This document shows positions 1 through 51,496 of a stretch of 64,000 nt of DNA, piece by piece. The stretch is from positions 124,001 through 188,000 of the forward strand of contig NZ_CP114777.1 of the NCBI RefSeq assembly GCF_027359355.1. The letters are read 5' to 3'. The position numbers and the translations under genes are program-made. This DNA is from Prochlorococcus marinus str. MIT 1214 (GTDB lineage: Bacteria; Cyanobacteriota; Cyanobacteriia; PCC-6307; Cyanobiaceae). How positions within the stretch are numbered: the stretch's first letter is position 1; every line of letters starts with the position of its first letter. The notes beneath the pieces are model-generated. The model saw nothing but the letters and a program-made list of their open reading frames with translations, was not told the DNA's origin and searched no databases.

Positions 1-39
1 TCTTTTCTACGTCAATTAAAAATCTAATCACTCCTAAGT

Positions 40-66
40 GAGCTCTCGTTAAGAGGGCTTTTTTTA
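40..66 (+). terminator. Rho-independent terminator
   Basis: A 7-bp stem (AGCTCTC at 41-47 with GAGGGCT at 53-59, one G-U pair) closes a GTTAA loop and is followed by seven T residues. It probably ends a plus-strand transcript entering from outside the window. Confidence 0.75.
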
Positions 67-119
67 TTGCCCAGTTCAAATCGTCCAAATCTAGTAGTCC
101 ATTTAATTAGTTATTAATC

Positions 120-944
120 ATGAATAAACAACAGCTCCTTGTGGATCTCAAGGAACTTGCTATTCCTCGTCATTCAAAATGGGATCCCCTTGGATTAATG
201 AGTGTTCGTATTTATGTCAAAGACCGCCTTTCCTTTTATGGAGATGTTGTCGAACATTCATTCAAAGAAGGATCAGAAGAAGGTGTTAATTACATTCTCA
301 AATTTCCAGGTCAAAATCCCAATGTTGATCCAATACTCATTGGTGCTCACTATGACGGACCAATTAAATCTCCCGGTGCTGATGACAATGCAAGTGGTTT
401 AGCTGCCTTATTTGCACTGGCTGAGTATTGGACAAATAACCCTCCTATAAGACCGATATGGTTGGTTGCCTTTGATCAGGAGGAATGGGGAATGCTTGGT
501 AGTAAAGCTCTATCCAAAGAGTTAAAAGCAGCTGGTCAAAAGCTGAAGCTAATGGTCAGTCTTGAGATGATTGCTTTTACCTCTAAGGAGCAAAATTATC
601 CATTACCTGCAATGAAAAAACTATTTGGAGAGATAGGTGATTTCATTGCACTAGTAGCCAACACAGGTTGTGCCTTAATGCTTCCTAAGTTGTCATCAAG
701 CATGGGAAAGTATGTCCCAACTAAAGTTCTTCCTGTCCCTTTAAAAGGAGATGTTCTCGCTGATGTACGTCTTAGTGATCACAGCCCTTTTTGGGATCAG
801 GGGTATAACGCAATGATGATTACTGATACTTCATTCCTTAGGAATCCTCACTATCACGAACCTACCGATACTGTTGAAACTCTTGATCTGGAGTTCTTCT
901 ATAAAGTGATTGAAGGACTACTTGAAAGTTTGTCGAGACTTTAA
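120..944 (+). CDS. M28-family zinc aminopeptidase-like protein
   Basis: This 274-residue protein has the M28 metal-binding pattern: His77 and Asp79 in GAHYDG, the Asp88-Asp89 pair in GADDNASG, Glu121-Glu122 in DQEEWGMLGS, and a late His in NPHYHEPTDT. Members bind two zinc ions and release N-terminal residues from peptides; the exact substrate cannot be told. There is no signal peptide, so a cytoplasmic role is likely. The ATG follows a terminator by about 50 bases and the gene appears monocistronic. It lies just before the accessory island. Confidence 0.85.
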   Translation: MNKQQLLVDLKELAIPRHSKWDPLGLMSVRIYVKDRLSFYGDVVEHSFKEGSEEGVNYILKFPGQNPNVDPILIGAHYDGPIKSPGADDNASGLAALFALAEYWTNNPPIRPIWLVAFDQEEWGMLGSKALSKELKAAGQKLKLMVSLEMIAFTSKEQNYPLPAMKKLFGEIGDFIALVANTGCALMLPKLSSSMGKYVPTKVLPVPLKGDVLADVRLSDHSPFWDQGYNAMMITDTSFLRNPHYHEPTDTVETLDLEFFYKVIEGLLESLSRL

Positions 945-1056
945 TTAATAGATTTTCGCTAATTAATAGGAGGGGGTGATTCCCTCAAGCAATCATCAGC
1001 TTGAGCAAGCACAAAAAACTCACTAGCATTTCCGAGATTCTTTTTGCTATGAATGA

Positions 1057-1389
1057 TTATTTGTTTTTTGAATCGTATAGATCCTGCCGAACCATGCAAA
1101 ATGCCATAAACCAACACACCAAAGATTTGGCTAGAATGTATGCCAATATATTTGTATCGCTAGGGTCACCACCAGAGCCACCAGCAAAAATAAATGCACC
1201 TATCGCTCCTAACCACATGAAGTTGGTGAGATACTTTGTCGCTAGGAGTGCACACAAAAAAACAATAGAATTAGGAAAAGTTAAATTTGGAAAGTAGTAG
1301 ACGAGCATTGTCATGATGGTCATGACTAAAGCTGCTCTCAGGACAATCTTTATTTTTGGAAGTTCTAATCTCATAAACTTATTATGCAT
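1057..1389 (-). CDS. Small integral membrane protein
   Basis: This 110-residue protein has about three hydrophobic segments (roughly residues 15-33, 38-68 and 80-98) with a basic N-terminus. I do not recognise a family. An overlapping plus-strand frame (1001-1297) is open, but its product is less protein-like, while the minus frame gives coherent membrane helices. The gene sits at the left edge of the accessory island and is convergent with the M28 peptidase gene. Confidence 0.6.
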   Translation of the reverse strand: MHNKFMRLELPKIKIVLRAALVMTIMTMLVYYFPNLTFPNSIVFLCALLATKYLTNFMWLGAIGAFIFAGGSGGDPSDTNILAYILAKSLVCWFMAFCMVRQDLYDSKNK

Positions 1390-1483
1390 TAAACGTTTTA
1401 TATCCTTTTCTAGCTGAGCTAGTTCAATCAGGGATTAGATAAAAAAGACTGACTAACCCTTATCAATATTGTTTTTACTCAAG

Positions 1484-1500
1484 ATACGTACTATACGTAT
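1484..1500. promoter_or_regulatory. 17-bp perfect inverted repeat
   Basis: ATACGTA and TACGTAT flank a 3-base CTA centre. The symmetry suits a dimeric DNA-binding protein or a small cruciform. It lies upstream of the minus-strand membrane gene that starts at 1389, so it could be an operator for that gene. The regulator is unknown. Confidence 0.4.
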
Positions 1501-1528
1501 TTACTTCGTTAACTGATAAGTAGAAGGA

Positions 1529-1580
1529 TGTGTTTTAGATATGATCTACTTCGCTTCGCTCAGATCATAAGTAAAACATA
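1529..1580. other. Long imperfect hairpin in intergenic DNA
   Basis: TGTTTTA (1531-1537) and ATGATCT (1541-1547) pair with AGATCAT (1562-1568) and TAAAACA (1572-1578). A 3x3 internal loop separates the two 7-bp helices, and the apex is ACTTCGCTTCGCTC. The stretch 1390-1736 has no convincing gene. It holds this hairpin, the inverted repeat at 1484 and the direct repeats at 1631. Confidence 0.5.
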
Positions 1581-1630
1581 GATTTTTTGTCTTATTTAAA
1601 CGTCTAAATTTAACTTCACTTTCCCCTCTC

Positions 1631-1707
1631 CCTGTATACATGGCCTACCGCTGCCTCCCCCTGTATAGGTGGCCTACCGTTACTTTTCCTGTATAGATGG
1701 CCTATTG
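1631..1707. repeat. Three tandem 20-bp direct repeats, 28-29 bp period
   Basis: The copies lie at 1631-1650, 1660-1679 and 1688-1707 with consensus CCTGTATANRTGGCCTAYYG. The spacers are 8-9 bases and unrelated. The core TGGCCTACC resembles the GGTCCTACCA repeats before the integrase gene (6251-6273). Three copies with such short spacers do not make a CRISPR. A protein-binding array, such as recombinase arm sites or an operator, is the more likely reading. Confidence 0.7.
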
Positions 1708-1736
1708 GGTTAAATCTAATTAGAGACTAAGAATTC

Positions 1737-1889
1737 TTAGCTTTCTTCTTCAATAGGGTCCTTTAAAAAAACTTGCGAAGACGTAATAGGAATATCAAGG
1801 ACATCCCACACATCACAATCAACAGCCTGTTCTAAAACATGAATTGAGCTATCAGCATGAACAATTGTTTGAAAACCTGCAGGACCCAA
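1737..1889 (-). pseudogene. Possible 50-residue small protein or remnant
   Basis: Reading from a TTG at 1889, the minus strand encodes GPAGFQTIVHADS, then VLEQAVDCDVWDVLDIPITS and an acidic end (DPIEEES). The composition is protein-like and unlike random AT-rich translation. The frame stays open upstream for about 35 more codons with no ATG, overlapping the 3' end of the next gene. It may be a short gene with a weak start or the 3' remnant of a lost gene. I do not recognise the family. Confidence 0.35.
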
Positions 1890-1918
1890 TAGACGGAATA
1901 GACGTTTTACTTCTATAA

Positions 1919-2614
1919 CTAATTCCCACCTAGATACCCACCATATGCACCGGATGACGGATAAGAGGTGGAAGCGCTCCCGGCAATTCCTTGAATATTA
2001 GAGGTAGGTAGTTTATAAGTACTTGTTGGACGACTTGGAGAAGAGTTGTTAGAAGTCGGAAGTGAGGGCATGGAATATTGATTAATTACAGTCCTGCTAC
2101 CTCCTCCACTCCTACCAGTGTTGGAAAGTGGATATTGAAAGTATGTAATAGTACCTGATTTAGTTTTTTCAACTATGCCATCCATTTGTGGACAGAACTC
2201 ATCAAGTACTTTTTTTGCTACTCGAGAATATTCTTTTTTATGGACTTTTACATCTATCCAACCCCTTCGATCCCCCTTCCAGTTAACGGTGTAATCCTCA
2301 CAATCGGCATCAACACTCCATTCCATTCTCTGGACTAAGTCATAGATTCGATAATTTAAATAACGGCCATATTCACCTCTAATCTCTTTAGCGACAACAG
2401 CATCAGGATGTACCAAAACATCAGGATGAAAAAATCCCGCCAATCCTCTCGTTCCTTCAGAAGATTTATTAGTTTTACCAATCCTTAGCTCAATACAACC
2501 TTTGTAATCCTTAACGTCTTTACAAGCCTGATGGGCTTTTTTAGAGATTGAATTTTCCGCTAAAGCAGGTGAAGAAAGCGCAAGTATTAACGGTGCAAGA
2601 AGTAAACGGCGCAT
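1919..2614 (-). CDS. Secreted protein of unknown function
   Basis: I chose the internal ATG at 2614 because it yields a clean signal peptide (MRRLLLAPLILALSSPALA, cleavage after ALA); a longer frame reaches 2662. The mature part of about 210 residues begins with a Cys-containing segment (ACKDVKDYKGC), has a basic/aromatic middle, and ends in a low-complexity tail rich in Ser, Pro, Thr and Gly. The product is probably periplasmic or surface exposed. It is divergent from the metallopeptidase at 2686, with about 70 bases of shared promoter. The family is not recognised. Confidence 0.7.
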   Translation of the reverse strand: MRRLLLAPLILALSSPALAENSISKKAHQACKDVKDYKGCIELRIGKTNKSSEGTRGLAGFFHPDVLVHPDAVVAKEIRGEYGRYLNYRIYDLVQRMEWSVDADCEDYTVNWKGDRRGWIDVKVHKKEYSRVAKKVLDEFCPQMDGIVEKTKSGTITYFQYPLSNTGRSGGGSRTVINQYSMPSLPTSNNSSPSRPTSTYKLPTSNIQGIAGSASTSYPSSGAYGGYLGGN

Positions 2615-2685
2615 AAGATAAGTCTGTCGAAGTCGCAGGGCTTGATAGTCCTCACTAAACATTACTAAGAATCTAAATAAACGAA

Positions 2686-3531
2686 ATGAATAGATGGATT
2701 AAGAAAGGAATTGGATTGGCTTTAGTTACTTTTACAGGTGTAATAGGGACTGTCTATTTAAGGAATGCTCAGTTCATAATGCCCAGTGAATACAAAGAGA
2801 TAAAGAGCCTTGTTAATGAATTAGCTGAACATAATGACTTAGGCGATAGAGAGATTACCTTTACTGTCGTTCCAGGTAGTTGGGTTGGTTGGTTCGCTGA
2901 GAATTTAAAACTTTGCAAAGAAGATTCTTGTGGCTTTTATGATGAATTGAATCCTTATAAAAAGTTCAAAGGAGACAAAGCCTATGAGATTAATGAAGCG
3001 ATTAGGCAAGCCTATCTATTTGATGCTGTTCAAGGGAGAAGTCATAGCCATGGAACAATCACTTTAAATCGATCTTCTTTTAGAATTTTTAATTCAAGGC
3101 GAGAATATTTAGGTTGTCTAATTGCTCATGAACTTGTTCACTTCCTTGAAGATCATGTCTTTGAAGATGACAAGTATGTCAGCGAAAACAAGAAAGGATT
3201 AAGTGAAGCCAAGATTGAAGAATTAGAAAATAAACGTAGCCGTGCTTCTGAAATCGAAGCTCATAACAATGCGTCCTTAATGATGAACAATGCTGGCTAT
3301 CCAATCGATTCTTGCTTAGAAGAGTTGAAATTCACTGCAAGACTTTCTGGGCATGGTGCAAACACAGAGCTAGGAGATAGTCATCCAGGTTATGAGGAGT
3401 GGATATCAGAGTTGGAGGATTTTATAGCCAGTCAAAAAGATACTCCGATTGTGAACACATCCAAGACTGCTATTCGTTGGAGATATGATCGTGATTTAAA
3501 TGTGTTGACTTTAATTCCAACTGAACCCTAG
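2686..3531 (+). CDS. Membrane-anchored M48-like zinc metallopeptidase
   Basis: The N-terminus has one hydrophobic anchor (about residues 8-26). The zinc motif HELVH is at residues 148-152. A downstream SEIEAHNNAS...NNAGYP segment (about 188-206) matches the M48 pattern E-A-D-x-x-A...AGY, supplying the third Glu ligand with His in place of the usual Asp. Members cleave proteins in or near membranes, as in HtpX-type quality control, but this copy is not close enough to HtpX to name. Its stop lies 3 bases from the end of the convergent ACP-like gene. Confidence 0.65.
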   Translation: MNRWIKKGIGLALVTFTGVIGTVYLRNAQFIMPSEYKEIKSLVNELAEHNDLGDREITFTVVPGSWVGWFAENLKLCKEDSCGFYDELNPYKKFKGDKAYEINEAIRQAYLFDAVQGRSHSHGTITLNRSSFRIFNSRREYLGCLIAHELVHFLEDHVFEDDKYVSENKKGLSEAKIEELENKRSRASEIEAHNNASLMMNNAGYPIDSCLEELKFTARLSGHGANTELGDSHPGYEEWISELEDFIASQKDTPIVNTSKTAIRWRYDRDLNVLTLIPTEP

Positions 3532-3534
3532 ACG

Positions 3535-4845
3535 TCACAAATTTAATGACTTTGCTTTTGACGATTTATACTCATCTTCACTAATTAATCCTTGGTCGTA
3601 CAAATCTTTTAATTCCTCTAATCTTTCCTTAAGTGTTTGATTCTTATTTTTAGGACCCTCTATTTTTATTTTATTGAAATTTAATATGTTTTTAAATGAG
3701 ATCTTTTTAATAGAAAATAAGAAATAATAGTCAATCCAAAATATTGCTACTGCAAAAATTGAATAGCAGACAACAGACACAAGAATTACATTGTATAAAT
3801 TATAATTTAACAAATTAGATTTCACGAAATCTCTAAGAATGAAAATACCTGCTATTGAGAAATAATTAATAAAAGAATTAAATTCATATGACTCCTCATC
3901 AGCATTATCTGAAAGACAATTCTTTGGATAGCTCAATGTTTGATCATTGATTTCATACCTTTGTCTATAAGTAACAAAGTAGACAGCTAATCCACATATA
4001 CCTTGGAGTATCAACCTTATAATATGGTCTTGACGAAATCCTGGTGGATAAATTAATAAATTAGCGGTAAATATTGTTGCTACAGGTATTAAGGCCAAAG
4101 CTAATGATCGTTGCCTAATTGCGAATACTAATGATGTAAATGGTGATAATGCACCGCAAAGAATAGCGATAAGCCAAGGCTTGCATGTTTGACGTCGCTT
4201 TAGTGATAAATCAGTGGATCCAGATTCTTTCATGTATTCTTCTTTTTGCTCAAGCTTAGAAAGCAAGTCTTTCCCTTGCTTCTTTTTGACCCTTTGTTCT
4301 TCGATATATTTAACTGCATCTTCTACGGTGACAATGTCTACTTCAGACTCTTTTGGTATTTTCATGTCAAACACTTCTTCTAAATCCGTTAGTAGCTCTG
4401 CGAAGTCAAGGCCATCCGCCCCAAGATCATTTTGAAAAGTGGATTCTGGTTTCACATCGTTAATATCAACTTCTAGTCGTTTTGAGACAATACATCTAAC
4501 TTCTTCCATGATTTGTTCAGGCATCACCTTCGCCTTTTCCGACGACTGAAGTTTTTTATTTTCCTCAATTAGTTTTTTCTCCTTCTCGATTTTCTTTCTC
4601 TTTTCATTTTTGATTCTTAACTTCTCTTCTTCTTCAGCTTCTTGTTTTATTGCTTTATTCCTTGCACTTTTCTCAGCTCTCAGCTTCGCAGCGTTTTTTC
4701 TTTCATCTCTCTCTTTCCTTTCCTTCTCTTCCCTTCTTTCCTTATCACCTCTTTGAGAAAAATGTTCTGGTAATTCACCAGGATCAGTCCACCATTTATT
4801 ATCCCTCCAATCACCATATTCTTTTTTATTTTTATCTTTGGTCAT
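3535..4845 (-). CDS. Coiled-coil membrane protein with degenerate ACP domain and SHOCT-like tail
   Basis: Four parts are visible in 436 residues. (1) A highly charged Lys/Glu/Arg coiled coil at about 32-105. (2) An acyl-carrier-protein fold at about 108-185, very close to bacterial ACP (NDLGAD, LEEVFDMKIP, TVEDAVKYIEEQ). (3) Several membrane segments at about 223-375. (4) A C-terminal SHOCT-like helix pair at about 403-436 (LKDLYDQGLISEDEYKSSK). The phosphopantetheine serine of the DSL motif is Gly145 here (DGL), so the domain cannot be loaded in the usual way. It may act as a protein-docking module. The overall architecture is new to me. Confidence 0.75.
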   Translation of the reverse strand: MTKDKNKKEYGDWRDNKWWTDPGELPEHFSQRGDKERREEKERKERDERKNAAKLRAEKSARNKAIKQEAEEEEKLRIKNEKRKKIEKEKKLIEENKKLQSSEKAKVMPEQIMEEVRCIVSKRLEVDINDVKPESTFQNDLGADGLDFAELLTDLEEVFDMKIPKESEVDIVTVEDAVKYIEEQRVKKKQGKDLLSKLEQKEEYMKESGSTDLSLKRRQTCKPWLIAILCGALSPFTSLVFAIRQRSLALALIPVATIFTANLLIYPPGFRQDHIIRLILQGICGLAVYFVTYRQRYEINDQTLSYPKNCLSDNADEESYEFNSFINYFSIAGIFILRDFVKSNLLNYNLYNVILVSVVCYSIFAVAIFWIDYYFLFSIKKISFKNILNFNKIKIEGPKNKNQTLKERLEELKDLYDQGLISEDEYKSSKAKSLNL

Positions 4846-4979
4846 GTTTATCGGTTCTTATTATCTTTATTGATTGCAGTTATCGAACACATTGTGATTG
4901 GAATAATTTTAGCTGACACTAGATTGTCTAGTTTTATCAAAAATCCTATTTCAATAAAGTTTTTAAGGATGATTTTATT

Positions 4980-6248
4980 TTATTTCAGTAACTCCATCGC
5001 TTCTCTTAATTCTTTTGTTGAGGGACGTGTGTACAGACTTACGACTTCACTCATTCCTTCAATCTTGTGACGAGTAATCTCGAAAATAATAAATGGTGTA
5101 ACTCCAGAAAGAGTGAGCTTGGTAACTGCATATCTTCTTAAATCATGACTACGAAGCTTGTATTTGTTGGGGTAGTCAGATACCCAATGAGCTCCCCATG
5201 AATCATTTGTGGCCTTGTATCTGAGAGGCCAAATTGGATCATCAGATTGGTTTATTTCCATATCTTTAATTGCTTCAAAAAGTGCAGAGCTCATAGGCAA
5301 GCTCCTCTCATCTTTAGTCCCTGTCTTGAATTTTCTAATCTGTGTTTCTTTCCTTTGCCCTCCTCTAAGTTTTCCGTAAGTCACAATCTTTTCCCATTGT
5401 TTGAAGTGGATCACCTTCTCTTTTAAATCAATATCGCAATGCCTTAATCCAGCAGCTTCTCCTTGCCTACAACCTGTGTATCTCTGAATTAAAAATTGAA
5501 AGTCCTTGTTCTTTCGATTCGAAGTTGTTTTGGATGCCTTTTTTGTTGCTGCATTGAAGATATCCTTTTCAGGTAGTGGCTTTTTCTCTGCATCAGGCAA
5601 TCGCTTTTTTAGTCCTGCCCAAATATTGGCTTGAATTAAATCATTATCAATTGCCCAATTCCAGAAACCGTTAAAACATCCAATTGCATTTTTAACTGAT
5701 GAAGGTTGCTTGCCTTCATGGAGCATGAACTCCTTGTATTCGATGGCTTTTCTTTTGGTTAAATCTGCTAAGTAATCAGTTTTAGCCCATTCAGCTAAAG
5801 ACTTAAGTCTTGACCTCCAATTGATGATGGTTGATTTACTGACGCCTTCTACTGCAATTCTTCTATTCACCCATTGTTGCCAGGTGCTTTTACCATCTAA
5901 TGACAGCCACAATGCTGCTGTTGCTTGATCTGTTGGATTTCCATGTTTATCCAGTTCAAGTGGATAGGAGCTTTTGATATTTTCTTTCTCTTCTGCAGGC
6001 AATTTGCCAAGAGATTCGTCCCTGTATGCAGTTTCTATTTTCTCAACGAGAGTGAGTGTGTTTAGAGCAGCCCCAAACTCACGTTGAATCTCGGATTCAA
6101 CTTTAGAACGTATTGCTATTGCTGCTTTATGAGTGTTGCCTAGCTTTCTGACAACTTCACTTTTGCTGTACTGAGAACGCAGGGATCTTGGAACTGCAAC
6201 ACCTAAATAATATCCAGTTCTACCTGTCCTTTGAAAAACTCTCGACAA
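4980..6248 (-). CDS. Tyrosine recombinase (integrase)
   Basis: This is a 422-residue site-specific recombinase. Residues 1-65 form an N-terminal domain of the type I know as DUF6538. A SAM-like core-binding domain spans about 120-215. The catalytic domain shows Arg261 (TGCRQGE), His368 and Arg371 (HDLRR), His394 (TRHK) and the nucleophile Tyr406 (SLYTR), so it looks active. Translation starts at TTG because a stop lies three codons upstream and no ATG is near; tandem repeats sit directly before it. It probably mobilised part of the surrounding island. No tRNA target is visible nearby, and its N-terminus recurs on sulfite reductase at 47-49 kb. Confidence 0.9.
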   Translation of the reverse strand: MSRVFQRTGRTGYYLGVAVPRSLRSQYSKSEVVRKLGNTHKAAIAIRSKVESEIQREFGAALNTLTLVEKIETAYRDESLGKLPAEEKENIKSSYPLELDKHGNPTDQATAALWLSLDGKSTWQQWVNRRIAVEGVSKSTIINWRSRLKSLAEWAKTDYLADLTKRKAIEYKEFMLHEGKQPSSVKNAIGCFNGFWNWAIDNDLIQANIWAGLKKRLPDAEKKPLPEKDIFNAATKKASKTTSNRKNKDFQFLIQRYTGCRQGEAAGLRHCDIDLKEKVIHFKQWEKIVTYGKLRGGQRKETQIRKFKTGTKDERSLPMSSALFEAIKDMEINQSDDPIWPLRYKATNDSWGAHWVSDYPNKYKLRSHDLRRYAVTKLTLSGVTPFIIFEITRHKIEGMSEVVSLYTRPSTKELREAMELLK

Positions 6249-6250
6249 AA

Positions 6251-6273
6251 GGTCCTACCAAATGGTCCTACCA
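6251..6273 (-). promoter_or_regulatory. Tandem 10-bp repeats before the integrase start
   Basis: Two perfect copies of GGTCCTACCA (6251-6260 and 6264-6273) with a 13-bp period end 2 bases before the TTG start codon. Read on the gene's strand they give TGGTAGGACC twice, and the AGGA may double as a ribosome binding site. The same arrangement precedes sulfite reductase. The position suggests autoregulation by the integrase, an attachment core, or translational control. Confidence 0.6.
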
Positions 6274-6488
6274 GTACAGCTTGAAATCTAAGTTATGTCA
6301 ATGATATAACTGATTATTTCTTCTTGTGGTTAGTTCAGGTCGATGCTTCTTGGGCCTTACGGCAAAGCGGTACTTACTCTTTAAATTTATGAATTAAATC
6401 ATATGTTAGTTGTGAATATATAAATGATTTAATCCTGATTTCTATGAGGAATCTATTTTTAAGTTTTGGAGAAAATAAACTAATTATT

Positions 6489-6863
6489 TTAAGATGTTAG
6501 CCCTCTAGATTTTCGGACCTTTCGCAGGAGTTCGTGATCTTCTCTTGCTCTTTTATCAAGTATTGCTATGTCTCTTCTAGCTTTTTGATCAACTTTTTGA
6601 ATATCTTCTCTTGCTTTTTGGTCGAGCAGTGCAACATCTTTTCTTGCTCTTTGATCGAGATTCTCAAGGTCTGCTCTAGCTCTTTGATCAGCATTCTCTA
6701 AATCAATTTTGGCTCTTTCTAACATGCTCGTCATTGAGTCGACCATCATTGATAAAGCTGCGGGAACTTGCTTTTCTGAAGTTGAAAAAGGGGACTTTTC
6801 ATTAAGGCTAATACCCGTGTCCGCTTGATTCGAAGCCATGGTTTTCATTAAATAGGCTCGCAT
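6489..6863 (-). CDS. Hendecad-repeat helical protein
   Basis: Residues 51-116 of 124 are six uninterrupted 11-residue repeats with pattern A-[RK]-x-D-[LIV]-x-x-x-D-[QK]-[RK], for example ARADLENLDQR and ARKDVALLDQK. This predicts one long amphipathic, highly charged helix, probably a right-handed coiled coil, of the kind seen in some membrane- or surface-associating proteins. The first 50 residues are polar and Met-rich. There is no signal peptide. ATG codons at residues 1, 6 and 9 are all possible starts. The function is unknown. Confidence 0.75.
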   Translation of the reverse strand: MRAYLMKTMASNQADTGISLNEKSPFSTSEKQVPAALSMMVDSMTSMLERAKIDLENADQRARADLENLDQRARKDVALLDQKAREDIQKVDQKARRDIAILDKRAREDHELLRKVRKSRGLTS

Positions 6864-46313: not shown

Positions 46314-47072
46314 ATGATAAAGATGAGACCTTGGAATAATATCAAAATAAATGAATGTAATGAGCCTTTAATTTCTATTCCAAAATCCATATCTCGTCTA
46401 ACACCTCATCCTTATATGTCGTTAGGCGCTCCATATTTAAGTGGTGCAGATCCATGGGTTTTACGTAAAAGTGTTTTAAAAAGATTGATACGTGCGCAAC
46501 AATACCTTTCCGAGATTAATCCCAAACTTCAGTTGGCTTTGTTTGATGCCTGGAGACCTATAGCTGTCCAAAAATTCATGTTTAATTACACTATTGAAGA
46601 AACTTGTATGTCAAAGGGGATTGATATTAATGATCTTTCTGTCAATGGAGGCGTCAATGATGTAATTGAGGAAGTTGGTCGTTTTTGGGCAAAACCATCT
46701 ACTGATCCTCTTACGCCGCCTCCGCACAGTACAGGCGCTGCGATTGATTTGACACTTGCTGACATGACTTGTAAACCATTGGATCTAGGTGGTGAAATAG
46801 ATTTTATTGGACCTGAATCTAGTCCTGACTTTTATAAGAAAGACTCTTTTGGAATGCCTAATTCAAAACTTCAGGTTTTTCAGGATAGAAGATATCTTTT
46901 GTTTTCAGTTATGGAACGTGCTGGATTTGTTCAACACCCAAACGAATGGTGGCATTTTAGCTATGGCGATCAGTTATGGTCTTGGTTAACTAAGAAAGGT
47001 AATGCTATTTATGGGTCTGCATTTGAGGTAAGTAAAGACATTACACATTCAGAGCCAAGTTTTATCACATGA
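46314..47072 (+). CDS. VanX-like D-Ala-D-Ala dipeptidase
   Basis: This 252-residue M15D peptidase has the zinc ligands His138 and Asp145 in PPHSTGAAIDLT, Glu211 and His214 in EWWH, and the transition-state Arg81 in DAWRP. Such enzymes hydrolyse D-Ala-D-Ala for peptidoglycan recycling rather than vancomycin resistance. No signal peptide is present. Its last 64 bases overlap the end of the convergent sir gene. Confidence 0.88.
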   Translation: MIKMRPWNNIKINECNEPLISIPKSISRLTPHPYMSLGAPYLSGADPWVLRKSVLKRLIRAQQYLSEINPKLQLALFDAWRPIAVQKFMFNYTIEETCMSKGIDINDLSVNGGVNDVIEEVGRFWAKPSTDPLTPPPHSTGAAIDLTLADMTCKPLDLGGEIDFIGPESSPDFYKKDSFGMPNSKLQVFQDRRYLLFSVMERAGFVQHPNEWWHFSYGDQLWSWLTKKGNAIYGSAFEVSKDITHSEPSFIT

Positions 47073-49153
47073 TCTCCAAGACTAGATGATGCTCCAGTAT
47101 CTTTCCAGCTAAGGAATAAAGGCTCTAATGTCTTCTCTAATTCATTGATAGGCATCTTTTGTAGATATGGAGTCGCCAATCTTTGTAAATTAGTGCTACC
47201 ACCAAGCCATAGTTGGTATTGATTTAGACCACTACCAACCAGAGCTAATTCTGCCATATATGGACGAGCACATCCGTTTGGACAACCTGTAACTCTTATC
47301 AAGATTGATTTGTTTATCTCTAGTTTTTTTAGTTGATTGTTTATTCGTTTCAAGAGCTTTGGTAAAAATCTTTCTGCTTCTGTCATCGCGAGTCCACACA
47401 ACGGTAGAGCTGGACAAGCCATTGCATGTCTAGTTATTGGCTCAGGGCTTTCTGGATTATTGAAACCAATATTAATCAGAGCATTGTTTACACTGGCTTT
47501 TTGATAATTACCAATGTTACACAAAAGTAAATCTTGGTTGGGAGTTAAACGAACGTCCAATGCGAATTTTTCAACTATATTTCTCAACTCTTTCTTTATC
47601 TCTCCGGTAAGCCTACCTGATAATAGTGGTAGCCCAACAAACCATAGTTTTTCAGATTGTTGATGCCAGCCTAAATAATCTTCAAGTATTGCATCCCCTT
47701 CGTTCCTTAAGGGGCCAATCTCTTTCGTAAAATATTTCGTTGTTAACTGTTTCTTAAACCAATCGACACCCATGTCATGCAAAACATATTTAAGTCTTGA
47801 GTGTCTTCGAGTTTTTCTATCTCCATAATCTCTTTGAAGAGCGAGAATAGATTGAACAAGTTCTAATATATATTTTCCTTCTACAAAACCAATGGGATCT
47901 GCTAATCTCGCAAATGTCGTATCTAGGTTGTGTGTTCTACCCATTCCTCCTCCTACATAGACATTACATCCTTCTATTGCTCCTTTTGCATTTGCGAACG
48001 TCACTAGACCTATGTCATGAGTTAGAATATCAACAGAATTATCTCCTGGTACTGTAGTTGCACATTTGAATTTTCTTGGCAAGTAGGTTGCACCATATAA
48101 AGGTTCATTTTTGTCTCCACTAAATACTCCAGGATTGCGTTGAAGCTTTCTTATCTTTTTGACTTCAGAGGTTGGCTTGATAGCATATTTCATCTCGCCA
48201 TCAACCCATAAATCAATATAGGTTCTCTCAGCTTTTTGGGGCGATAAAGCATCGGCAATATCATGAGCTAATTTTCTTGCAGCAGGATAAGACCCTTTTT
48301 CATAGGGGGCTGCTGGAGCCATAACATTCCTGTTGACATCTCCACAAGCAGCTAGTGTCGATCCCATTGACTTAACAATTGTTCCTATAACTTCTTTAAT
48401 ATTTCCTTTTTTTATTCCATGCATTTGGAAGCATTGACGAGTGGTCGCTCTAAGGGTTTTATTCCCTAGTCGATCAGATAGATCATCTAATGCAATAAAT
48501 AGGGGCCCTGGGACCAAACCAGCTGGATTTCTTAGCCGCAGCATCATTTGCCAATCTTTACCTGTGCCACCTCTTTTTCGATGTTCCCTATCATCTTGTT
48601 GGTAACTACCATGGAATTTTAAAAGTTGTACGGCGTCGTTTGTAAAGTGATCACTGTCGTTTAATAATTCACTTTGCAGGGGTTCATTTAAGTAATTACT
48701 ATCAGCTTTAAATTGTTCAAATTTCGCTCTAGGGGAATTATTCGCTATGCAAGGCGAAGGAACACTCTTTTCTATTTCTTCAACATTTGTACATCCATGT
48801 TCCTCGAAATTCATCAGAGCTTCGATAGCTGCATTGCTGAATCCAGCATCTTTTAAGTCTTTTTCTATGTTTTTTGGAGATTCTTTTGAATTATTATTTT
48901 TAATAGCCTCGAGTCTTATCCCCTTAGGTAAGGATTTGTTGATCTGTTTGGCCTCTTCTTCTCTGAGCTTTTCATCGAATTTTTGTTGAATAGATACTTC
49001 AGCTGAGCTCATGTTCTCTTCTGCTTCTTCTTTAGTGTTACCTATTTTTTTTACGACATCACATGTCCCAAAAGCATCTCTTAGTTTACCCCTTGGTACA
49101 GCAACCCTCAGGTAAAACCCCGATCTCCCTGGTATTTGTATAATCTTAGGCAA
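47009..49153 (-). CDS. sir: Ferredoxin-sulfite reductase with integrase-derived N-terminus
   Basis: Residues from about 143 are a full assimilatory sulfite reductase that reduces sulfite to sulfide with ferredoxin. The siroheme/4Fe-4S cysteines are in ACPALPLCGLA and VTGCPNGCARP. Residues 1-65 (GRSGFYLRVAVPRG, DVVKKIGNT) match the N-terminal domain of the integrase at 4980-6248, followed by a linker of about 75 residues. The longest frame starts at TTG, with a stop three codons upstream. An internal ATG at 49012 (residue 48) would remove most of the domain. The total of 714 residues is over 100 longer than usual Sir. Confidence 0.9.
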   Translation of the reverse strand: MPKIIQIPGRSGFYLRVAVPRGKLRDAFGTCDVVKKIGNTKEEAEENMSSAEVSIQQKFDEKLREEEAKQINKSLPKGIRLEAIKNNNSKESPKNIEKDLKDAGFSNAAIEALMNFEEHGCTNVEEIEKSVPSPCIANNSPRAKFEQFKADSNYLNEPLQSELLNDSDHFTNDAVQLLKFHGSYQQDDREHRKRGGTGKDWQMMLRLRNPAGLVPGPLFIALDDLSDRLGNKTLRATTRQCFQMHGIKKGNIKEVIGTIVKSMGSTLAACGDVNRNVMAPAAPYEKGSYPAARKLAHDIADALSPQKAERTYIDLWVDGEMKYAIKPTSEVKKIRKLQRNPGVFSGDKNEPLYGATYLPRKFKCATTVPGDNSVDILTHDIGLVTFANAKGAIEGCNVYVGGGMGRTHNLDTTFARLADPIGFVEGKYILELVQSILALQRDYGDRKTRRHSRLKYVLHDMGVDWFKKQLTTKYFTKEIGPLRNEGDAILEDYLGWHQQSEKLWFVGLPLLSGRLTGEIKKELRNIVEKFALDVRLTPNQDLLLCNIGNYQKASVNNALINIGFNNPESPEPITRHAMACPALPLCGLAMTEAERFLPKLLKRINNQLKKLEINKSILIRVTGCPNGCARPYMAELALVGSGLNQYQLWLGGSTNLQRLATPYLQKMPINELEKTLEPLFLSWKDTGASSSLGDHVIKLGSECVMSLLTSNADP

Positions 49154-49154
49154 T

Positions 49155-49176
49155 GGTACCTACAGCGGTACCTACA
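49155..49176 (-). promoter_or_regulatory. Tandem 10-bp repeats before the sir start
   Basis: Two perfect copies of GGTACCTACA (49155-49164 and 49167-49176) with a 12-bp period end one base before the TTG start. They parallel GGTCCTACCA x2 at the integrase start. On the gene strand each reads TGTAGGTACC, so AGG may also act as a ribosome binding site. Confidence 0.6.
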
Positions 49177-49333
49177 CTGTATCATTTTTCTTGTTGGTTA
49201 GTGCCTAATTGTTCAAATTAGACTATGAGTGAACAAAGAGCAATTCATTGAAAATTAAATTTTTTCTAGGACACAGAATGTAGAAGTAATTCAAATTTAG
49301 TTCTAACCTTGTTGAAAGCATAAGGAATTTTTT

Positions 49334-51496
49334 TTGTCTACTTACCTTTTAGAAATCGGCACTGAGGAATTGCCTGCTGATTTGGCTGAATCAGTTATTT
49401 CCCAGCTTGAGTTAAATGTAAATAACGATTTGAATTCGGCTCAAATAAAATTTAGTGAAATAAGAGTTACAACTACACCTAGAAGAATTGCATTAACGAT
49501 TGAAGGGATTGCTCCATTTTCTGAAGATAATATTTCAGAACGAAAAGGTCCTTCTGTTTCTCAAGCTTTTCATGATGGAAAACCTACAAAAGCAGCAATT
49601 GGCTTTGCTAAAAGATATGACATTTTACCTGAAAAATTAGAGGTTCGAGAAACGCAAAAGGGGGCATTCGTTTTCGCTAAATTAATTGAGAAAGGCAAGC
49701 CCGTTGGGAGTTTGTTGGCTGACTATTTACCTGGATGGATCAGCAAAATTCAAGGAAGAAGGTTTATGAGATGGGGGAAAGGTGATTTTCGCTTTTCGAG
49801 ACCTATCCGTTGGATTGTTTCTTTGATTGATTCTGAAGTTTTACTTTTTAGATTTTTTGGGTGCGATCCAGAAATTCAAATTGGTAATATCTCAAGACCA
49901 CATAGGTTGCATGGCTCAACATTAGAAATAAAGAATGCGAAAACTTATTTTGATCAATTAGAGGATGTCGGAGTAATAGTTGACAGGAATAAGCGCCTTT
50001 CAAATATCAATGATTTAGTTCTTAATCACGCAAGAACTAAAAACGTTAAGCCTGATCTGACTGCCTCCCTTTTGAATGAGCTAACCGATTTGGTTGAGTC
50101 TCCTTTACTTGTGACGGGGAGTTTTGATGAATCTTTCCTTGATTTACCCCCTGAGGTTTTGTCCACAGTAATGATGGTTCATCAAAGGTACATACCATTG
50201 TACAAAGTAAATGTTGAGTTTGATCCATTATCACTTGACTCAAGAAATATTCTACTTCCTGGCTTTTTGTGTATTAGTAATGGATTATCTTCAGCAAAAG
50301 AAAATATTATTGTAGGTAATGAAAAAGTTTTAAAGGCAAGGTTTTCTGATGCTTCATTTTTTATAAAGTCAGATTTATTAACCAATAGCTCTTTACGTAT
50401 TCAACAATTAAAAGATGTAACTTTTGCTGAAGGATTAGGCTCTTTATATGAACGTGTAAATCGGATTAAATGGCTTGTTGAACTTGTGACTTCAAAACTT
50501 CAATTTGATCAAGGGGATATTGAAAAATGCTTGAAAGTTGCACATTTTTCTAAACATGACTTAGTTAGCAATATGGTTGATGAATTTCCAGAGTTGCAAG
50601 GAATTATTGGATCTAAATACTTACTTCATGAGGGTGAATCCAGAGAAGTATGCCTTGGCGTTTTGGAACATTACAAACCGAAGGGGACGGCAGACTCTCT
50701 CCCATCAAATAATCTTGGGAATGCGGTTTCATTAGCTGAACGCCTTGAATTGCTTTTTAGTATTTATGTTAAGGGCGAAAGACCTACCGGTTCATCTGAT
50801 CCATATGCCTTGAGAAGAGCTGCGAATGGAATATTGATGATTTTATGGACTAAAGATTGGCAATTAAATATCAATGAAATACTAGATAATTCACTAGCTT
50901 ATTGGCAGCAACTTTTCCCTTCTCTTCCTTTTAATATAATTAGTCTTTCGTGCGAGTTAAAGGAATTCTTTCGTCAAAGAATTATTAGTTTATTAGAAGA
51001 GAAAGAAGTGGATTTTGATATTATTCAGGCAATTGCAGGAGATACAATTTCTACATCGAAATTATTAGATGATCCAACAGACATAAATTTTCGTACTTCT
51101 TTATTAATGGATATGAGGAAAAATAATACACTTAATTCATTGCAAGCAGTAGTGACTCGAGCCTCTAAGTTGGCAACCAAAAGTTCTATCCCGGAAGATG
51201 TAATAGATCCTTCAGTTTTTGTAGACAAATCTCTATTTGAGAAGGATTGTGAAATCGAAATGTTTAATGTTTTGGAGAAATTAAAACCTCTAGCTATAAA
51301 TGGTGATCGTGTTAAATATAAATTGTTGGCTGATGGTCTAGTCTCAAGCGCTGTAACTCTAGCTAACTTTTTTGATGGAGAAGGAAGTGTAATGGTTATG
51401 ACGGATGATATTAATATAAGAAATAACAGACTAAGTTTACTGACAATTCTTAGAAATCAGTCCTTGAAGCTTGCCGATTTTAGCAAGCTTAGTTAA
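49334..51496 (+). CDS. glyS: Glycyl-tRNA synthetase beta subunit
   Basis: This 720-residue subunit of the alpha2-beta2 enzyme shows YLLEIGTEELPAD at the start, TPRRIA, RKGPSV, MRWG...FSRPIRWIV, DLPPEVLSTVMMVHQRY and ERPTGSSDPYALRRAANG. It charges tRNA-Gly together with the alpha subunit encoded elsewhere. The start is TTG, eight codons before the conserved GTEELP. It is divergent from sir. Confidence 0.95.
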   Translation: MSTYLLEIGTEELPADLAESVISQLELNVNNDLNSAQIKFSEIRVTTTPRRIALTIEGIAPFSEDNISERKGPSVSQAFHDGKPTKAAIGFAKRYDILPEKLEVRETQKGAFVFAKLIEKGKPVGSLLADYLPGWISKIQGRRFMRWGKGDFRFSRPIRWIVSLIDSEVLLFRFFGCDPEIQIGNISRPHRLHGSTLEIKNAKTYFDQLEDVGVIVDRNKRLSNINDLVLNHARTKNVKPDLTASLLNELTDLVESPLLVTGSFDESFLDLPPEVLSTVMMVHQRYIPLYKVNVEFDPLSLDSRNILLPGFLCISNGLSSAKENIIVGNEKVLKARFSDASFFIKSDLLTNSSLRIQQLKDVTFAEGLGSLYERVNRIKWLVELVTSKLQFDQGDIEKCLKVAHFSKHDLVSNMVDEFPELQGIIGSKYLLHEGESREVCLGVLEHYKPKGTADSLPSNNLGNAVSLAERLELLFSIYVKGERPTGSSDPYALRRAANGILMILWTKDWQLNINEILDNSLAYWQQLFPSLPFNIISLSCELKEFFRQRIISLLEEKEVDFDIIQAIAGDTISTSKLLDDPTDINFRTSLLMDMRKNNTLNSLQAVVTRASKLATKSSIPEDVIDPSVFVDKSLFEKDCEIEMFNVLEKLKPLAINGDRVKYKLLADGLVSSAVTLANFFDGEGSVMVMTDDINIRNNRLSLLTILRNQSLKLADFSKLS

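Follow-up and report, generated by a model that had tools for sequence, protein, structure and literature searches.

An integrase-type N-terminal domain and a conserved tandem repeat pair at the sulfite reductase gene in one branch of Prochlorococcus

We analysed a window of 64,000 nucleotides from Prochlorococcus marinus str. MIT 1214 (NZ_CP114777.1, positions 124,001 to 188,000). Its minus strand encodes a sulfite reductase, Sir, whose first residues form a tyrosine integrase N-terminal domain, and the same domain opens an integrase encoded elsewhere in the window. Both genes are directly preceded by a pair of short tandem repeats, and glyS is the divergent neighbor of sir (Table 1). The 3′ end of sir overlaps that of a convergent M15-peptidase gene by 64 bp (47009-47072).

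Table 1 Features of the sir locus and of the related integrase locus, in window coordinates
Feature	Position	Strand	Basis or remark
Fused sir gene	47009..49153	minus	714 aa, TTG start
Native ferredoxin-type sulfite reductase, residues 134-714	47012..48754	minus	Curated models
Fast-evolving linker, residues 119-133, probable fusion junction	48755..48799	minus	dN/dS 0.53; junction inferred
Residues 66-118, possibly integrase-derived	48800..48958	minus	Moderate and weak evidence
Integrase N-terminal domain, apparently captured, residues 1-65	48959..49153	minus	Homology; dN/dS 0.062; predicted strand-strand-helix-strand-helix
Start codon TTG of sir	49151..49153	minus	TTG 27, GTG 2 among 29 genus sequences; TTG in G082
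Proximal putative arm-type repeat, TGTAGGTACC	49155..49164	minus	Repeat search, conservation; one base before the start codon
Distal putative arm-type repeat, TGTAGGTACC	49167..49176	minus	Repeat search, conservation
TACAGT, -10-like hexamer (TAnnnT)	49176..49181	minus	Shares its last T with the distal repeat, as that repeat's first base
glyS, divergent neighbor of sir	49334..51496	plus	Name assigned by eye
Tyrosine integrase sharing the Sir N-terminal domain	4980..6248	minus	Homology to the Sir N-terminus
Integrase tandem pair, TGGTAGGACC x2, period 13	6251..6273	minus	Just 5′ of the integrase TTG start
Integrase-side copy of the 58-bp attachment core	6327..6384	minus	Other copy lies outside the window, about 0.9 kb to its left, and overlaps a 6S RNA gene

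Architecture and translation start of the fused gene

The first-pass annotation had described sir as a complete sulfite reductase whose N-terminus resembles that of the integrase, and both parts of this description were borne out. In a two-sequence comparison, residues 1-63 of Sir aligned with residues 1-62 of the integrase with 27/63 identities (E 2e-13), and the motifs quoted for the pair (GRSGFYLRVAVPR, DVVKKIGNT and IQ..F) are present in the sequence. A profile-profile comparison with seven integrases gave E 4.7e-23 (one comparison), and against four integrase sets the values ran from 5e-23 to 1.5e-17, each from a single comparison; the Sir domain is thus homologous to the N-termini of this picocyanobacterial integrase group. 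Behind the extension, the curated model NF010029 scored 742.1 bits over residues 135-704 (cut-off 457) and TIGR02042 scored 724.9 bits, slightly below its cut-off of 731.5, a full-length similarity to Sir/CysI models that places the protein with the assimilatory sulfite reductases. The siroheme/4Fe-4S cysteine motifs of sulfite reductase are CX5C and CX3C, and CPALPLC and CPNGC were found by eye in the Sir translation. The catalytic domain PF00589, which the integrase possesses, gave no match in the fusion; Sir is therefore not a tyrosine recombinase.

Residues 1-78 were predicted with a pLDDT of 89.8 to form three strands and two helices. Like Sir, the structures of the P4-like and HPI integrase arm domains (3rmp and 3jtz) represent N-terminal integrase domains, and they matched the model at Z 3.4 and 3.1, values level with or below those of unrelated rows, many of them ribosomal; a shorter domain model gave Z 3.2 for 3rmp. 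A sequence search of solved structures returned nothing significant, the best hit being 4yxx_A, named dTor_6x35L, at E 0.053. Foldseek against PDB and BFVD found nothing below E 0.7, with a few BFVD phage integrases at E 1.9 and worse. In Pfam, DUF6538 (PF20172) scored 22.3 bits with the integrase, under its cut-off of 27, and did not match the Sir extension.

Among 29 sequences of the genus, dN/dS was 0.062 for residues 2-65 and 0.081 for the enzyme, compared as bare ratios. By this measure, purifying selection on the captured domain is no weaker than on the enzyme. The ratio was 0.144 for residues 66-100, 0.099 for residues 101-118, 0.53 for residues 119-133 and 0.058 for residues 134-143. 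A linker thus exists between domain and enzyme, as had been noted, but it is not the uniform charged stretch of about 75 residues that was described: residues 101-118 are constrained and partly predicted to be helical, and only about residues 119-133 are relaxed. Since this last stretch evolves fast, the fusion junction probably lies within it.

The only position within residues 1-199 at which at least 90% of the sequences have a possible start codon is residue 1, which is TTG in 27 and GTG in 2 of the 29 genus sequences and TTG in G082, a genome of another genus. Three codons 5′ of this start, the window's gene has an in-frame TAG, as do 21 others of the 30 distinct fused genes. Possible alternative starts occur upstream as an in-frame ATG, 11 codons 5′, in 5/30 fused genes and as an in-frame GTG or TTG in 2 others. 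Given the low dN/dS and the single conserved start, it is very probable that the domain is translated as part of Sir and has been retained. The selection and start-codon data thus lend support to the earlier reading that the 5′ end of an integrase gene was joined to the core sulfur gene sir.

Distribution and age of the fusion

The genus in question, which we take to be LLI, was represented by 41 genomes, 29 of which matched Sir from residues 1-3 to 713-714; this excludes an assembly join artefact, which had been named as a possible refutation. In G013 sir was split over two contigs, G032 contained a C-terminal fragment alone, and ten genomes (54-88% complete) gave no sir match. The integrase-type domain was present on Sir in 30/30 genus genomes in which the sir N-terminus was found. 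In the family, 111/121 genomes matched Sir (E <= 1e-100), and the extension occurred in five, four of the genus plus G082, the one genome outside the genus to carry the fusion; the remaining family matches had no extension. The named fused loci of a separate scan belonged to Prochlorococcus genomes. The domain as such was found in 67/400 family genomes, 30 of them genus genomes that have it through Sir, and in 8/388 genomes drawn from the class, all eight within the family. Outside Sir (E <= 0.01), it was found among the 41 genus genomes only in the genome of the window itself.

In a tree of 12 fused and 37 non-fused rows, the fused sir genes form one clade with support 99/98; the 12 were drawn from 51 fused rows (G082 twice), the 37 include two same-genome pairs, and the bootstrap had not settled. 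The chromosomal position is shared. A divergent, adjacent glyS was found in 38/38 non-fused rows (36 genomes), 124-195 bp from the conserved sir core, and in 72/72 fused rows (30 distinct genes), 600-641 bp from the core, an excess close to the length of the extension (429 bp). The fusion is thus, from these comparisons, real, old and conserved. Because fused genes occur across the whole genus and in one genome of another genus, and form a single clade, we do not regard the fusion as the scar of a local excision or deletion, the origin that had initially been suggested. Among the papers listed by literature searches, no title or abstract opening describes this fusion.

Tandem repeats at sir and at related integrases

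The first-pass annotation overlooked what appears to be a second captured part, the tandem repeat pair at the sir start. Directly 5′ of the start codon, all 30 distinct fused genes have two copies of TGT[A/T]GGTACC with a period of 12; the variable position is A in both copies in 27/30, T in one copy in two, and T in both in G082. Among the 29 genus sequences, each repeat has 9/10 invariant columns and 99.3% mean pairwise identity, and the 2-bp spacer between them has 72%. The -10-like stretch is 98.5% identical, two 40-bp blocks upstream of the repeats are 79% and 71% identical, and a 50-bp block lying farther toward glyS is 89% identical. No full sigma-70 consensus promoter was found at sir, and an Rfam search of the leader gave no match up to E 1.

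Even with three mismatches allowed, a single instance of the tandem pattern was found in the 1.93-Mb genome. Exact single copies number four, of which two belong to the sir pair and two fall within open reading frames, and on these exact copies we rejected a genome-wide regulon of the repeat; sites with one mismatch number 42, and the backward-pattern control of that search gave more matches (104 vs 46). The sir repeats have only the start-side pair, with no partner on a far side. We also searched the fused leader for a remnant of an old sir or integrase leader, in 15 alignments with leaders of non-fused sir genes and one with that of the integrase, and rejected it, as the best alignment was equalled by 17/500 shuffles. 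A TTCGCTACGGT-like motif was seen by eye 5′ of several unfused sir genes (L105, L092, L098 and others) and is absent from the fused leaders shown; it may possibly be the old sir promoter, since replaced.

Similar pairs accompany the domain at integrase genes. Tandem repeats (at least 9/10 identical, period 12-13) were found within 50 nt 5′ of the start at 15/30 integrase-domain loci, the other 15 lacking a strong start-side repeat; many of these "starts" are positions aligned with a start rather than start codons, and the 30 include related and truncated copies and so are not all independent. The corresponding counts in control windows were 0/60 upstream and 2/93 downstream of the integrase-domain loci, shuffles gave 0.5%, and non-fused sir genes gave 0/140 windows at 35 loci. 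L085, excluded from the count for its short upstream sequence, nevertheless has a 10/10 repeat. The repeat sequence varies widely between integrases. TAnnnT abuts the first repeat in 13/21 loci, four of which are sir, vs 43/357 shifted positions, which suggests that transcription may start inside the repeats.

The nature of these repeats was indicated by the elements to which the integrases belong. The element of the window's integrase, about 7.3 kb long, lies between two 58-bp copies of the attachment core (51/58 identical, counted from the alignment) and spans window positions 1-6384 plus about 0.95 kb to the left (L228). Allowing at most one mismatch, it has two repeats on the integrase side and, on the far side, four in tandem, one more, and one inverted. 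The G241 element has the identical layout with another repeat sequence, TGGTCCTGCA, and the G061 element has one copy per side. Like repeats thus flank the attachment core on both sides in the window's element and in that of G241. Because each element has a repeat sequence of its own, common to both of its ends, we read the repeats as arm-type sites.

Part of this integrase group looks to have 6S RNA as its attachment site, since the far core of the window's element overlaps the 6S RNA gene and integrase remnants of G241 and G061 lie near 6S RNA. Of the 13 sources scanned, these three loci alone gave 6S RNA; most of the others are short stretches. The integrase frames of G061 (L122) and G241 (L123) are shortened to 106 and 163 aa, and the start-side repeats are retained, one copy in G061 and two in G241. 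From these frames, both elements are decaying.

We asked which integrase is closest to the Sir domain. That of G139 is 49% identical to it over 59 residues and has repeats (TTGTAGGTAC/TTGTAGATAC) resembling those of sir, and the window's integrase is 43% identical; a genome search ranked G181 and G061 above G139. Identity slightly favors G139 as the donor, and the genome search favors G181 and G061. The window's own integrase is at most one candidate, since it has family relatives elsewhere that are equally close. The alignment of the G139 group to Sir reaches about residue 119, with a probability of 51% for the similarity after the domain alone, and an HMM of that region by itself did not rise clearly above reversed decoys. 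A closer donor in the genus of G139 was sought and rejected: 3/31 genomes matched, G139 included, and none was seen to be closer to Sir. Phage origin was likewise rejected, the integrases of the window and G139 having no match in 50,697 phage records (E 1e-5), and pattern scans of viral contigs yielded no confirmed case. Fusion of the domain to other enzymes was rejected too: the five odd, weak matches that were inspected by eye resemble recombinases or a fragment.

A proposed autoregulatory circuit and its alternatives

Since a repeat pair stands at the starts of both sir and the integrase gene, and the integrase repeat recurs at the far attachment site, we suggest that sir acquired both an arm-site operator and the domain presumed to bind it. 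In an ancestor shared by this Prochlorococcus genus and one relative, about 430 bp of the 5′ end of an integrase gene would have been inserted between glyS and sir and in the sir reading frame. The piece would have comprised the tandem arm-site pair, a non-ATG start codon, the arm-binding-type domain and perhaps the helices that follow it. As described in PMC2951348, tyrosine integrases bind arm-type sites through their N-terminal domains; the IntS integrase of the KplE1 prophage is negatively autoregulated, with arm-type sites overlapping its promoter, and several other integrases, whose recombination region overlaps the promoter, are negatively autoregulated as well. IntS and sir are alike in the placement of the sites, where the gene for the domain itself begins. 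By contrast, sir encodes a sulfur enzyme that lacks a recombinase domain, and its binding and repression are predicted from layout and conservation.

Every Sir molecule would carry the domain, and the two matching sites span the probable transcription start and extend to just before the start codon, so that a protein bound there would block transcription initiation. From the position of these sites and the precedent of IntS and the other integrases, we propose, with a probability of roughly 0.7, that Sir binds the repeats specifically and autoregulates its own gene, most likely by repression. Sir would occupy the pair and lower its own expression when abundant, and sir would thereby have retained the negative autoregulation of integrase genes. 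The odds seem even for a more far-reaching version, in which sir took over a mobile element's self-control circuit (operator, start codon and domain) in one step and so gained, in a streamlined genome, a dedicated repressor of its own gene, the binding of which might be tuned by sulfite, siroheme or redox state. The streamlined Prochlorococcus genome is poor in regulators.

It is unlikely that the repeats are kept only as promoter or leader of sir while the domain serves folding, stability or partner binding, with no interaction between the two. The overlap of the -10-like hexamer with the first repeat means that promoter use alone would impose some constraint, but there are two like copies with a free spacer, altered alike in G082, and the same pairing of domain and repeats recurs at integrases with quite different repeats, and on both sides of two elements.

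We consider it quite improbable that the domain tethers Sir to DNA generally, in nucleoid binding or compaction without specific regulation, the moonlighting role that had first been offered. The domain does derive from a type of DNA-binding protein, and plastid SiR (DCP68) is likewise a sulfite reductase connected with DNA, which it binds and compacts according to PMC4154389. However, the near-invariance of the sir repeats and the single occurrence of the tandem site in the genome fit one target better than many, and an arm-type pair placed where sir begins suggests site-specific control of the gene itself. Moreover, plastid SiR compacts DNA with, to our knowledge, neither an integrase domain nor a known specific site. 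The candidate capture of operator and domain, not general tethering, is thus what we regard as the main finding.

The chances are slim that the repeats serve a different protein of the element, for instance an excisionase (RDF). RDF sites can also be direct repeats about one helix turn apart, like those of Apl (PMC7498355). The repeats are kept in genus genomes that have no domain outside Sir, so this reading would need an RDF that persisted without its element. Hardly credible, finally, is an ordinary Sir with a downstream start whose extension is non-functional read-through or an assembly artefact: non-fused Sirs begin, by eye, just 10-30 residues before the conserved block and the start codon here is TTG, but dN/dS is low across the domain, no other start is conserved in residues 1-199, and the join recurs in many separately assembled genomes.

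As an autoregulating Sir, the fusion would resemble PutA, BirA and NadR, autoregulating metabolic enzymes with a DNA-binding domain, in combining enzyme and regulator in one chain that acts on its own gene or pathway. It would differ from them in that domain and operator both appear to derive from the integrase gene of a mobile element. This suggests a route to new host-gene regulation in which a mobile-element module of operator and binding domain is captured, instead of a regulator gene. The direct prediction, in a very abundant photosynthetic lineage, is that Sir binds the TGTAGGTACC pair at its own start. Since related genera retain an unfused sir at the same place, fused and unfused genes offer a natural experiment on enzyme autoregulation. 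For this integrase group, the analysis also points to the arm sites and to attachment at 6S RNA. Around the window's integrase, two other frames were noticed: upstream, a 124-aa ORF (6489-6863) with 33-bp repeats encoding 11-residue units of DQ(R/K)AR type, and, at 3535-4845, a 436-aa protein in which an acyl-carrier-protein-like stretch, DLGADGLDFAEL (by eye), lies between a charged N-terminus and hydrophobic segments.
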